From Hyaloscypha bicolor E (Eukaryota; Ascomycota; Leotiomycetes; Helotiales; Hyaloscyphaceae): a stretch of 64,000 nucleotides of DNA. Each line of letters begins with the position of its first letter. Position 1 is the stretch's first letter. The stretch lies in the NCBI RefSeq assembly GCF_002865645.1, contig NW_020194589.1, forward strand, positions 1,959,750 through 2,023,749. The letters are read 5' to 3'. The notes beneath the pieces were generated by a model. That model made no database searches and was not told where the DNA came from. It saw only the letters and a program-made list of their open reading frames with translations. The position numbers and the translations under genes were made by a program. Positions 59,444 through 64,000 of the stretch are shown here, one piece after another.

Positions 59444-60099
59444 ATGAGCGTATTTGCAATCCTGACAGTCCTAGCATTGTTCACCCAGTTCAGAACCTTT
59501 TCAAGTGCTCAGATTGTGAAATCTTCATGGTTTGCGCCTGGGGTAGCAGTAACAAGGGTATATATCGTCTCGACCAGTTTCTCGCATGTTCTCACTAAAA
59601 CACTAGTTTCAAGTTACAGTGACAGTACCATCACTACCTTCTGGAAGCGGTGCACATGGAGTTTGGCCAGGCGGTGAGAACAATGGGGCAGGCTTCGTTT
59701 TCCAGGTGTCATCAGTGACTCAAAGAGCCCTGGTGCTTGGATGTTCTGGGTCGAATATCGTTGCAAGTAGGATAAATCCTGAGCCTGCTCAAGTGCATAG
59801 CTGATTCTCCAAAATAAGCCCCAATTATGAAGCCTCGCCAATCAAAGATGGGAGCAACGTTTCTTGTGATCTAAAATATTAACGAACGAATAGCGTACCC
59901 TGGAGATTCAATAACGAGCACCTTCATCCTGGGATCTGGAGGCTGGACTGATAGCTGGTCACTCTCACCCGGCTCAGCAGGTAGTTCTGCTGGTCAGTCC
60001 TCCCAGAGTGGATAATCTTCCAACACTTTCGGTAAGCGGATCATTCTCAATAATGGCGTCGATAAGTCACTGACATTGTTGGACTGGTAGCTGGAACTA
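59444..60099 (+). pseudogene. 5' part of a secreted jelly-roll-like protein gene, broken by a transposon
   Basis: Exon 1 (59,444-59,557) encodes a signal peptide (MSVFAILTVLALF, likely cut after FSSA) and is followed by a 49-nt intron. Exon 2 from 59,607 encodes VTVPSLPSGSGAHGVWPGGE and FVFQ. The frame then slips by one base at about 59,705 and goes on as VISDSKSPGAWMFWVEYRC. A 52-nt intron (59,767-59,818) follows, then NPNYEASPIKDGSNVS, a second break near 59,870-59,895, YPGDSITSTF and GGWTDSWSLSPG. A stop (TAA, 60,013-60,015) comes next, then an intron 60,032-60,090 and the nine bases ctggaacta. The pattern is of a family of secreted fungal concanavalin-A-like (lectin/glucanase fold) proteins that I know only as hypotheticals. 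The rest of the gene lies at 63,694 onwards, beyond the inserted element. Confidence 0.8.
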
Positions 60100-60139
60100 A
60101 CGTCCATCCCTGCGTGGCGGAAAACCCTACGTGCCGGAA
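60100..60139 (+). repeat. Left terminal inverted repeat of the HET element
   Basis: 40 bp, adjacent to TA at 60,098-60,099. It differs from the reverse complement of the right repeat at 60,111 and 60,117 only. Confidence 0.9.
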
Positions 60140-60789
60140 CGACTTCGTGGTTTGGGGGTCTCAAACCTCTACCATATAAATATATAAAGTTATATTCAGG
60201 TTGCTATTGTTCTTTAGCTATTTCTCTATAAGGATTCGGTTTGCAGTAAGAAAATACTGACGGTTGTGGTCATGTTATCGATTGTCTCGTCGAAGGCATT
60301 TAAAACCCTTTCGGCTGTTCTCCCCCGCTCTATTATAATTATTGGCCTGTCTCCAAATTCCGGGACCATAGGATAAAACTTCTACCAAGAGAGAATATAA
60401 CTTTAAGCTTTGAAGACGTAGAGTACAAGGAAACCTACTTACCGGATTTATCCGGATAAAGTAGGGGGAGGTACACAATACGCCAAGCATCTTAATAAGC
60501 GAAGGCGGTGCTTATATAAAATCATATTTACAGTTATAGTAAATTAATCGTTTTATATTTCATATTATACGAGACTCACGTGAAGTGTGGCGTTATTCTA
60601 GAAGTTTCCACAAGCAGCCACGTGTCCGCTTCTGCACGGCGGAGCTGCCACTCAGTCGTTCCAATCCCCATCCTATCTCTATGTAAGGCCTAGTATCCTC
60701 CTTTTAGTCCTAGGAATTTCCGCATCACGTCGACTACTGCATACGCTGCTTGCTTTACTACAATCGTCGTCAATGCGAAGGATAGCAAA
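60140..60789. promoter_or_regulatory. 5' internal region of the HET element, presumed HET promoter
   Basis: 650 bp between the left repeat and the HET start codon. The stretch 60,500-60,570 is AT-rich. No gene or known binding site is identified. Because it is inside the element, the HET gene would move together with its promoter. Confidence 0.45.
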
Positions 60790-62796
60790 ATGAACGTGGA
60801 GGAAATTGATCTTTGTCCCTTCTGCTCGGACCTGGTGAAATCAACAACAGACTCTCTAATCCCCTCTTCACAATGCCCCCACTATCCAACTTATGGTTTA
60901 ATTTTATCCTCTAGCGAGAAATGCACTATTTGCCGGACAATAACTTCTCTATGGGGCCATATCGATTCGATTCTAAACAGACATGAAATATCAAAAAAAC
61001 CCATCCGGGGTTGTCGTGATGAATTTTCTGTCAAAATAACGACCAAAGTCGCTCGCCGAATGCCTTCTGGTGCCTCTTGGACGCTTCTGGAAGCCAGCTT
61101 AGGCAGTACACATACTGGCCTTACGTCCATATCCTATTTTACACTTGTGTCTTGTCTATTGGGAGGTAAGAGATGGTCTACGCAGAATATGTGCCCAAGA
61201 GCCTTACACCCCTTGGGTACAGATCCAATATCATCTTCCGCTTTTTGGAGGAGCCCAACAACGACTTTTGACTCCAAGCTCTTAGCCATCCAATCGTGGA
61301 TGTTTGATTGCGAGTCTCAAAACGGCCACAGTAAATGTAGGCCCGTGCCGTTTGCACCTCTGCGGCTCCTCACTGTTGGCCTCGACGGCAAGCCGCTTAG
61401 ACTAGTTGAACGGGATACTACAACGATTCGAACGGACTATGCAGCTCTAAGCTATTGCTGGGGTAACTCCTTACAGCTGCGCACCACAAAAGGGACGCTT
61501 ACTATATTTAGCAAGGAAGTCCCCTCCAAGCTTATTCCAAGGACATTTGCCGATGCTATACATATAGCTCGAGCTCTGAGAATTCCATATATTTGGATCG
61601 ATGCCCTATGCATTGTTCAAGATGATGAACAGGAGTGGCAAAGCGAAGCAACACATATGTCTGAGATCTACCGAGGGAGCCAGTTAACCATTACAGCAAC
61701 CGAATCCGTAGATTCTCTGCAGGGCTGTTTCCCTCCCGAGAAGCCTGGTCTCCACAGTGCTGGGTTATTCTTCCGCACTCGACCTAATGGGTTGGATGAC
61801 CGTAGCAGCCTTGTCCGTATCTACCGCAATGATATCAGAGACTCCGTCGTGGAAGACAGTGTTATTAGCACCCGGGGGTGGACTTTACAAGAGCAGTTGC
61901 TCTCCCCGAGGCTCGTCTTTTGTATGCAACCCGACATGCACTGGAAATGTCAATGCAACTACCAAACTCAAAGCGGTCTCTCCTTCGAGCCAAGAATGGC
62001 ACCTGATCGCGGTGGCTTGTTCCTTGATCTCAATCATCGGCTTGATGATCTGTGGTACCGCAGCAGCTGGCGACGCATCATTGAAGGCTATTCACTGCGC
62101 GAGTTCACCTTCTCGCAAGACAGAGTTCCTGCTATCGCGGGTATGACTAGATACTTTGCGTCTACTTTGGAGGATGTGCCAATATTGGGACTATGGGTAA
62201 GGTCTTTTGCAAGAGACTTAGCCTGGTTGCGCGGTGGTGGTCGTCAGCAAATGTCTAACACCTCAGGGCTTCCTTCTTGGACCTGGCTTGCGTGCCAGGG
62301 TTGCGTTTTATATACGATCGGCTCCAAGTACGCAGATTATGAAGTGCAAGTGGTAGAGCATCTGAAGCTTCTAAACTGGGATGTGCAATGGCAGGGCACG
62401 CCCTACGCGTCGCCGGTCGAATTGGCGCAAGTGAAGGTCGAAGGTCCCGTGCGAGAGATCGAAATAAGGCCATTTACCGAAGGTAGTTCTCACAAACCGC
62501 CATATTTTCAGGTCTTCGGGGAGGACCTAAAACCTACCGTGAAGACGAAGTTTCCTTGGCGATGCGCTGGGCAGTTTGATACCGGTGATGCAAGTGAAGC
62601 GACGATATACTTGTGCCTTCTCTTGTTTTCTGAGACAAAGAGCTCCGAGTCCAACTATACTTCTGAAATTTTTCTCATTCTAGAACCAGTTGAGATACAT
62701 AGCACCGTTAAATATAAGCGCATAGGGATGGCAAGAATATGGGGTGGACCGCCAACTTTCAACGCTGCTAAGACAATATCGATGGTTCTAGTTTAA
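60790..62796 (+). CDS. HET-domain (heterokaryon incompatibility) protein
   Basis: A single exon of 668 aa with no stop or frameshift. The N terminus has Cys pairs (LCPFC, CTICRT) usual in long HET proteins. The HET domain (about 215-370) shows its three blocks in order: YAALSYCWG (217-225), YIWIDALCIVQDD (about 267-279) and TRGWTLQEQLLSPRLVF (361-377). The C-terminal 290 residues have no named domain but contain the GLPSWTWLA block commonly found in such proteins. HET domains trigger cell death when a nonself partner is met at hyphal fusion, and some are TIR-like NADases. The start is the ATG at 60,790; the ATG at 60,774 runs into a stop after six codons. The gene lies wholly between the inverted repeats of a transposon-like element. 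The allele partner is unknown. Confidence 0.93.
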   Translation: MNVEEIDLCPFCSDLVKSTTDSLIPSSQCPHYPTYGLILSSSEKCTICRTITSLWGHIDSILNRHEISKKPIRGCRDEFSVKITTKVARRMPSGASWTLLEASLGSTHTGLTSISYFTLVSCLLGGKRWSTQNMCPRALHPLGTDPISSSAFWRSPTTTFDSKLLAIQSWMFDCESQNGHSKCRPVPFAPLRLLTVGLDGKPLRLVERDTTTIRTDYAALSYCWGNSLQLRTTKGTLTIFSKEVPSKLIPRTFADAIHIARALRIPYIWIDALCIVQDDEQEWQSEATHMSEIYRGSQLTITATESVDSLQGCFPPEKPGLHSAGLFFRTRPNGLDDRSSLVRIYRNDIRDSVVEDSVISTRGWTLQEQLLSPRLVFCMQPDMHWKCQCNYQTQSGLSFEPRMAPDRGGLFLDLNHRLDDLWYRSSWRRIIEGYSLREFTFSQDRVPAIAGMTRYFASTLEDVPILGLWVRSFARDLAWLRGGGRQQMSNTSGLPSWTWLACQGCVLYTIGSKYADYEVQVVEHLKLLNWDVQWQGTPYASPVELAQVKVEGPVREIEIRPFTEGSSHKPPYFQVFGEDLKPTVKTKFPWRCAGQFDTGDASEATIYLCLLLFSETKSSESNYTSEIFLILEPVEIHSTVKYKRIGMARIWGGPPTFNAAKTISMVLV

Positions 62797-63653
62797 TAGA
62801 AATTAAAACAACTTATGATACTTGGATCTTGTACTAGCCTATAGGGTCAGCTATTGACTTATTCTAAAGATGAAGGATCTGGGCTTAGAGGGCGAAGTCG
62901 ATTTTATAAGCGACTGTAGAAAATCATTGCTCTGTTCTCCGGGTCGAATGGATTTCTCGAGGCAGGCTCGTGCAGGCCTCGCGACTAGCTACTGTATGTT
63001 AGAGTTAGTCTTCGTCGTATTCTCGGCGCAATGGAAGGGAAGCAGCCCACAGCTCGGAATAGAAGGGCTAGAGACTAAGGAAGGAAGTCATGTGTCTACG
63101 TTGCGATCAAGGCGAAAACAATAGGGGGTGTCTGTAGGATGTGGAAAACTGGGTCGAGGTGGTTCAGTTGAGCCTAGTTAACTGCACAGCCACAGTCTCA
63201 GCGCCACAAGCTTGGATCTGGACAGCGCGCTAAAATATAATACGCCGTAATAATCCTGCGGGATGCACGGAGTTGTTTCGGCATTTGATCTCCTTTGATT
63301 GGAGGTACCGACCAGCATCCCGACATTGTATAAAGATTAGCGCTACAGCAGCCACAAGGCTGATAACAATTCCTAGCAAAGTAGTGAGACCCTAAGGCTC
63401 GCGAATAAGATTTCACAAGTATTAGAAGTAATAAAAGCTCAATGGTAATGCTGCGGTAAAGGAACTCTATTGCACCATGAACGGAGACTACCTACAAATC
63501 AAGTGCAAGGACGACGATGCGAACGTAATTTTTTGGTGGAATAGATTCAGAGTGGTCAGCGGTGGCGATGGAACACGACTTATGCAAAAATATTAGAGTC
63601 ATTGACGTGTACACAAAGTTTGACATGTTTGAAGTCAAAGTATCTACCATTTT
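62797..63653. other. 3' internal region of the HET element
   Basis: About 860 bp after the HET stop without a supported gene. An 84-codon open frame at 62,870-63,124 has no known motifs. No transposase fragment was recognised in either direction. Confidence 0.45.
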
Positions 63654-63693
63654 TTCCGGCACGTAGGGTTTTCCGGCACGCGGGGATGGACGT
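63654..63693 (-). repeat. Right terminal inverted repeat of the HET element
   Basis: 40 bp, followed by TA at 63,694-63,695. The two copies of ttccggcacg within it (63,654-63,663 and 63,671-63,680) mirror those of the left repeat. Confidence 0.9.
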
Positions 63694-64000
63694 TATTAGC
63701 AAAGTAAATACCTTCGAGACCCTCCCGCTTTTGGAAATTCGACATCTAATAGTTGCAGGCACTTATTGCTATCGAATTGCAGAATGGTGCATCATGGAAT
63801 TTCGGCAAAGTACAATGGGGCAGTATTGCTGTCCAGGCCAAGACTACTTCGTCCTTGCATTCAAATAAGTAAATACCTCACTCCTTGTGTTTGGCAACAT
63901 TCTGGTCGGAAAGCAGATATACTCCCAGTGGTGGATTTACGTATCAGATCTCTAGTGGTTCAGCTTCAACCACAGGCTCTTCAACAACATGCTCGTCCAA
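63694..64000 (+). pseudogene. 3' part of the split secreted-protein gene, running off the window
   Basis: The target TA plus ttagcaaa (63,694-63,703) continues the nine-base exon end left of the element. The codons ACT and ATT are restored if one TA is kept, reading GTISK. An intron follows (63,704-63,758: gtaaat, ctaat branch, tgcag). The next exon, 63,759-63,868, reads ALIAIELQNGASWNFGKVQW, the conserved end of the beta-sandwich. A 48-nt intron (63,869-63,916) and an open exon from 63,917 follow, beginning YTPSGGFTYQISSGSASTTG, a Ser/Thr-rich tail. Phases (0 and 2) agree with the left half. This half carries no stop in the window, but it has no start of its own. Confidence 0.8.

Follow-up and report, generated by a model that had tools for sequence, protein, structure and literature searches.

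The stretch of DNA considered here (the window) comprises 64 kb of the genome of Hyaloscypha bicolor E, a root-associated fungus, and its last part contains, at 60100-63693, an element of 3,594 bp that has inverted repeats at its ends, TA at either side, and a single gene for a protein with a HET (heterokaryon-incompatibility) domain. We describe this window element, the genomic copies of its left end module (LE) and right end module (RE), and the genes that such ends enclose elsewhere; L numbers denote fetched genomic loci, C numbers contigs, and P numbers protein records. The features of the element, by window position and strand, are as follows:

60098..60099, no strand: TA, left target dinucleotide
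60100..60139, + strand: left terminal inverted repeat (TIR), 40 bp, matching the right repeat at 38/40 positions
60098..60688, + strand: LE, ~591 bp, parts of it at 68-89% identity to many genomic copies
60790..62796, + strand: HET gene, 668 open codons; NCBI model 649 aa; PF06985 at residues 217-368
61166..61222, + strand: probable 57-bp intron (GTAAGA...ACAG), open in frame, implied by the NCBI model, its splice sites read off the sequence
62919..63045, + strand: apparent relic of the stretch 3' of a transposase stop codon, 80.5% identical to L012:5158-5284
63056..63695, + strand: RE, with its core at 63235-63695 by RE profile
63056-63235, + strand: inner part of RE, matched mainly by L013 and L016
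63654..63693, - strand: right terminal inverted repeat
63694..63695, no strand: TA, right target dinucleotide

Taken with their TA, the inverted repeats (60098-60139 and 63654-63695) are 42 nt long and 95% complementary; this confirms an earlier note on this DNA, which had described 40-bp repeats that match at 38/40 positions with TA outside both ends. Allowing up to three mismatches, the 42-mer was found twice in the window but in none of 100 shuffled sequences, by which a chance origin of the repeats is rejected. Profiles of both ends (E <= 1e-3) found no further LE or RE in the 64-kb window.

The open reading frame (ORF) at 60790-62796 has a single Pfam match, HET (PF06985; 5.7e-30, 105 bits against a cut-off of 22.5), the domain expected of a heterokaryon-incompatibility gene, and its product may act in incompatibility. 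The NCBI model of the same gene (P0003) has 649 aa, 19 residues fewer than the 668-codon frame, a difference that the 57-bp intron likely accounts for; the earlier note's intact 668-codon gene is thus upheld as an open frame with a HET domain, though its product is probably the shorter one. The closest relative of this protein, at 84% identity, is P0004 from Pseudogymnoascus sp. VKM F-4246, and the next relatives reach at most 61%; after H. bicolor itself, the first named relative from the Helotiales, in Rhexocercosporidium, stands at 36%, with several nearer matches carrying no name. The patchy distribution fits either mobility or loss, and the pairing of 84% in another genus with 36% in the first other named Helotiales match makes the protein a candidate for horizontal transfer.

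Copies of the ends are numerous. A search of the H. bicolor genome with the window element returned at least 68 matches (best 40 of 80 candidates scored), all of which, apart from the element itself, fall in its left ~590 bp or right ~645 bp, so that the HET gene itself is unmatched. For the two ends of L026 the numbers were at least 42 and at least 44 (best 40 of 71 and best 40 of 57 candidates scored), and all these copy numbers are lower bounds. LE (~590 bp) and RE (~460-640 bp) recur dozens of times around different cargo; of the further copies that the earlier note had proposed to seek, those with the same ends were found and none with the same cargo. Loci were fetched in three rounds (8 short ones from the first genome search, then 20, then 12 more), and 19 elements of 3-13 kb were delimited: the window element, L009/L037, L010, L011, L012, L013, L017/L036, L020, L022, L024, L025/L033, L026, L028, L030, L031, L032, L034, L035, and an element on contig C51 (L038/L029). 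LE and RE are paired in the same order in 15 of the 19; in the other four (L031, L034, L035 and C51) both ends are of the RE type, placed in inverted order and 58-78% alike, as against 46-48% between LE and RE of one element in the two cases measured. These four possibly reflect a route of gene capture that uses the ends of two neighbouring copies. TA stands at both borders in 14 of the 19 elements, L009, L010, L017/L036, L025/L033 and L028 among them, as in pogo/Fot1 transposons. L032 shows TA at a single border; a left terminus is missing from L011 and L024, L022 is cut at its right terminus, and one terminus of L035 is decayed.

The same ends also accompany a transposase, for which the earlier note had suggested a search. 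In L026 a transposase gene of the pogo/Fot1 type lies directly behind LE, with DDE_1 (1.1e-29) and HTH_Tnp_Tc5 (5.2e-05) domains and two in-frame stops. The copy in L014 has ten stops; only the first part remains in L009 (to residue 222), L010, L011, L020, L024, L028 and L032, and L012 retains short pieces of both transposase ends. An intact gene lies at C51:2177198-2179006 (603 codons, no stop), with DDE_1 at 3.1e-31, no HTH_Tnp_Tc5 at E<=0.01, and the residues D165/D276/D312 in a DD35D arrangement, a pogo-like triad. Named relatives of the transposase, at 58-72% identity, come from filamentous ascomycetes (Lachnellula, Pseudogymnoascus, Bipolaris, Alternaria, Pyrenophora and Botrytis).

Within the window element itself no transposase was found by tblastn with two transposase pieces, in agreement with the earlier note; what remains are the borders of one. 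On the left, homology stops at window position 60688, equivalent to L026:1169, and the transposase ATG follows 19 bp on at L026:1188, such that the window LE corresponds to the leader of the transposase gene in L026. On the right, the stretch at 62919-63045 matches a segment of L012 that starts 40 bp behind the transposase stop codon (L012:5115-5117), with shorter matches of 39-40 bp in L014 and L026. The HET ATG lies 102 bp behind the left break, and the HET stop 123 bp before the right relic. With the non-coding borders of sister transposase genes adjoining it at both sides, the HET gene thus stands where the transposase gene lies in sister elements, and it has the same orientation. The orientation recurs: HET points away from LE, like the transposase, in all six LE-type HET loci (the window, L013, L022, L025, and the undelimited L015 and L023).

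The element that carries the intact transposase (C51:2171892-2180153; 8,262 bp, TIR and TA at both ends) also contains divergently oriented HET, NACHT and WD40 frames, separated from the transposase by a gap of 433 bp. Their 1,376-residue join is identical over its whole length (100% over 100%) to P0243, an NCBI protein of 1,379 aa from Hyaloscypha bicolor E named 'HET-D2Y', although the contig recorded for P0243 (2,433,243 bases) differs in length from C51 (2,422,422). The element thus encodes a complete HET-NACHT-WD40 protein beside an intact transposase. Two further divergent HET/transposase pairs, with gaps of 328 and 360 bp and many stops, lie at C1:1275651-1277473 (L039) and C70:802784-804897 (L040); their transposases are 32-53% identical to that of C51, and WD40 follows HET with no NACHT present. 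The C1 stretch yielded no family ends, and the C70 stretch only an LE piece beyond the pair. The three pairs, with gaps of 328-433 bp, compare with 0.04 expected by chance. Locus L038 holds in addition, at 346-584 and beside a truncated right end, two outward-facing family repeats ~235 bp apart with TA, a figure resembling a miniature inverted-repeat transposable element (MITE).

Recognition-type genes recur in the sister elements. A HET domain is present in six of the 19 (the window, L013, where the frame is broken by stops, L022, L025, L031 and C51), and a pooled Pfam scan of the 87 interior ORFs of >=130 aa gives HET in 6; in L031 and C51 it is part of a HET-NACHT-WD40 (HNWD) arrangement. 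Two more delimited elements have genes of the NOD-like receptor (NLR) type without HET: L020, with patatin, TPR and a weak NB-ARC (19.5 bits against a cut-off of 23.5) in neighbouring frames, and the 13-kb L017/L036 (C56:843156-856105), with NACHT-type ORFs (NACHT_N and NPHP3_N in L036), ORFs for an OTT_1508 deaminase and a MYND finger, and a further left end directly at its border. Across the sister elements the other cargo domains are OTT_1508 deaminase, MYND and ankyrin. HNWD-type HET lies on the inner side of an LE in L015 and L023, and beyond the right end of L026 an LE piece is followed by an HNWD-type HET start. In L023 and L025 LE and HNWD-type HET follow in the same order and direction, at mostly 54-88% identity with one stretch of 47-55% between and flanks at 37-60%, which fits either one moved unit or two separate captures. 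Many cargo ORFs match nothing, and cargo that has decayed may have escaped notice; no Pfam family (E<=0.01) was found for ORFs in L009 (530 aa), L010 (510 aa), L022 (495 aa), L030 (332 aa), L032 (384 aa) and L034 (447 aa).

Taken together, these comparisons argue that the window feature is very probably a non-autonomous, gene-carrying derivative of a pogo/Fot1-type family (Tc1/mariner superfamily) of H. bicolor. The proposal in the earlier note that a non-autonomous element of Tc1/mariner/pogo type had captured a HET gene thereby gains support from the pogo/Fot1 transposase of the sister elements and from their other HET/NLR cargo. The ancestor would have consisted of a left end, a transposase and a right end, in that order; in the window copy a complete HET gene would have taken over from the transposase coding sequence, of whose surroundings the leader stayed on one side and part of the downstream region on the other. 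With the position and orientation of the transposase, the HET gene may be transcribed from the transposase leader, used as its promoter. With both ends kept, a transposase made elsewhere (for example from C51:2177198-2179006) could move the window copy in trans; the copy may be able to move now, and HET alleles might spread by transposition. The family has taken up recognition genes repeatedly: other HET genes, HET-NACHT-WD40 genes, and receptors of the patatin/STAND/TPR type.

Several observations weigh against this interpretation. A TA duplication is only 2 bp long and is hence a weak test of a target site. When terminal repeats were ranked by likeness, two of 12 other elements had a right repeat that was nearer to the left repeat of the window element than is its own partner, with 2 mismatches; the own pair was also not closest in L013 (2 closer) and L034 (7), and it was closest or tied in L012 (tied), L020, L026, L030, L031 (tied) and C51, a ranking from which L010, L028, L032 and L035 were left out as out of register. 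DNA and protein searches of the H. bicolor genome found no second copy of the window cargo, and no two fetched loci have a whole cargo in common. The empty site for which the earlier note had proposed to look was not found among paralogous sites in this genome, where the joined window flanks matched the window locus alone. Finally, C51, the source of the intact transposase, has RE-type modules at both ends and is therefore not the direct parent of the LE/RE copies.

The strongest alternative accepts a real transposon with a captured gene and denies its HET/NLR content any meaning, the gene having been captured at random and neutrally in dynamic regions rich in HET/NLR genes; we regard it as a serious possibility, somewhat short of an even chance. 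The genome holds 785 first-look HET candidates, of which the best 150 were scored, all of them above the cut-off, and only two of these (the window and L013) lie in delimited elements; moreover, 11 of the 19 delimited elements are without a recognised HET/NLR gene, and some cargo, as in L013, is broken. Against it, 785 candidates per 82.04 Mb, an approximate density, predict 1.16 HET in the 120.8 kb of the 19 elements, where six were found (P = 0.001); the excess persists without the window (5 against 1.12 expected, P = 0.006) and without both the window and C51, the latter left out because the element was completed after HET had been seen in it (4 against 1.04, P = 0.02). The three divergent HET/transposase pairs likewise speak against chance. 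In 95.3 kb of DNA exterior to the elements (37 ORFs of >=130 aa, with ~35 kb devoid of any ORF of 130 aa) no HET or NACHT appeared among the 25 of 34 families listed, where a single HET match weaker than ~3e-6 would be hidden, and none was found with a local HET profile, which was built from six sequences that it then found and for which the Pfam scans serve as control. A wider count tells against a preference for such cargo: among 117 HNWD-type HET matches, those within 8 kb of an end numbered seven on the interior and six on the exterior side, two being on both lists. That count used 117 of 156 matches (gene pieces, weak matches and those not listed being dropped), all 112 transposase matches, and 80 hand-compiled ends, some extrapolated, of which the two C51 ends were entered after the C51 element was known. 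Since HNWD-type HET is about as common just outside the ends as inside, the enrichment may be regional. An association of HET/NLR genes with family elements in the genome is supported; a preference of the elements for such cargo is not proven.

It is unlikely, in our judgement, that a long-resident HET gene stands here in an element now fixed, a former transposon domesticated as the shell of a host HET gene; the gene is single-copy and open, with its 84% relative in Pseudogymnoascus, as such a history would have it, but the element shows little decay, with terminal repeats matching at 38/40 positions and TA borders. Less likely again is the idea that the recognition cargo serves the transposon. 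The family would then be a mobile allorecognition system in which HET, HET-NACHT-WD40 and patatin/STAND cell-death genes are acquired, moved and reshuffled, as modules that serve themselves or act in defence. The C51 type would be its autonomous form, expressing a HET-D-like receptor and a transposase divergently from a shared promoter region, and transposition would seed new incompatibility specificities and penalise nuclei or partners without the element. That two separate MITEs or fragments flank a resident HET gene by chance, which the earlier note had named as one possible refutation, is very improbable and was rejected: nested, adjacent and cut ends do exist (two left ends side by side in L017, a right end truncated by the adjoining element in L022/L023), but the window ends are an LE/RE pair such as is found again in other elements, end profiles detect no further end in the window, and resident host DNA would not be bordered on both sides by transposase-bordering sequence.

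At the other end of the window, positions 1-36000 are poor in GC (12-20% over 32 kb, then 26% over the 4 kb that follow), with no ORF of >=130 aa before 35393; this AT-rich block is RIP-like (RIP, repeat-induced point mutation) or centromere-like.

Compared with known systems, the H. bicolor family shares DDE_1, HTH_Tnp_Tc5 (in L026), DD35D, inverted repeats and TA with Fot1/pogo, the pogo features being those given in the passages cited from PMC7325037; it differs in that most delimited copies, which span 3-13 kb, hold other coding DNA in place of the transposase or next to it. In this they resemble the Pack-TYPE elements of plants, likewise described, in the cited part of PMC8903248, as non-autonomous TIR elements with captured coding DNA. 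The window element has the TIRs of an autonomous family around host-type coding DNA and no transposase of its own; no donor gene was identified in the host genome, where the best-scoring paralogue is 36% identical (66 of 403 candidates scored). In contrast to Pack-TYPE elements, the H. bicolor element carries an entire gene, which in several copies is one for recognition, the family is fungal and pogo-type, and one copy keeps its transposase. The earlier note had pointed to Starships as carriers of HET genes, in agreement with the relevant passages of PMC9594970; according to these and to those of PMC12134995, Starships such as Horizon are fungal mobile elements with HET and NACHT cargo. As there described, their enzyme is a tyrosine recombinase and they can be hundreds of kb long, whereas the H. 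bicolor family has a DDE transposase, short TIRs, TA, and a size of 3-13 kb; a Starship identity is rejected on size and transposase type. The Starship captain domain DUF3435 was absent from the per-protein Pfam tables of the main ORFs, the pooled scan listing 25 of 116 families. ToxhAT, in the passages cited from PMC12506042 and PMC11857905, is a small fungal DNA transposon of 14 kb that moves an adaptive gene, the ToxA effector; it is a hAT element by name with one effector, in contrast to a pogo-type family with several recognition cargoes. The Podospora HNWD genes het-d, het-e and het-r have the HET-NACHT-WD40 layout of C51 and L031, and Podospora relatives of the C51 protein are 51-54% identical; the cited portions of PMC1805685, PMC12222747 and PMC9262711 mention no TIR element around these genes, although one Podospora NWD pseudogene is preceded by a transposable-element relic (PMC1805685, cited portion). 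Among the matches listed from the open-licence literature, none describes a pogo/Fot1 element with HET/NLR cargo or a HET-D-carrying element with its own pogo-type transposase. Gene-carrying TIR elements and the HET/NLR cargo of Starships are each known.

How fungi produce and disperse new nonself-recognition specificities is an open question, and the known Starship vehicles are huge. In H. bicolor, a small family of the cut-and-paste type carries HET/NLR-type genes, including an element with an intact transposase and a HET-D-like receptor. Provided that these elements are mobile, they could shift and duplicate incompatibility genes, and bring them to new promoters, as units of 4-8 kb.

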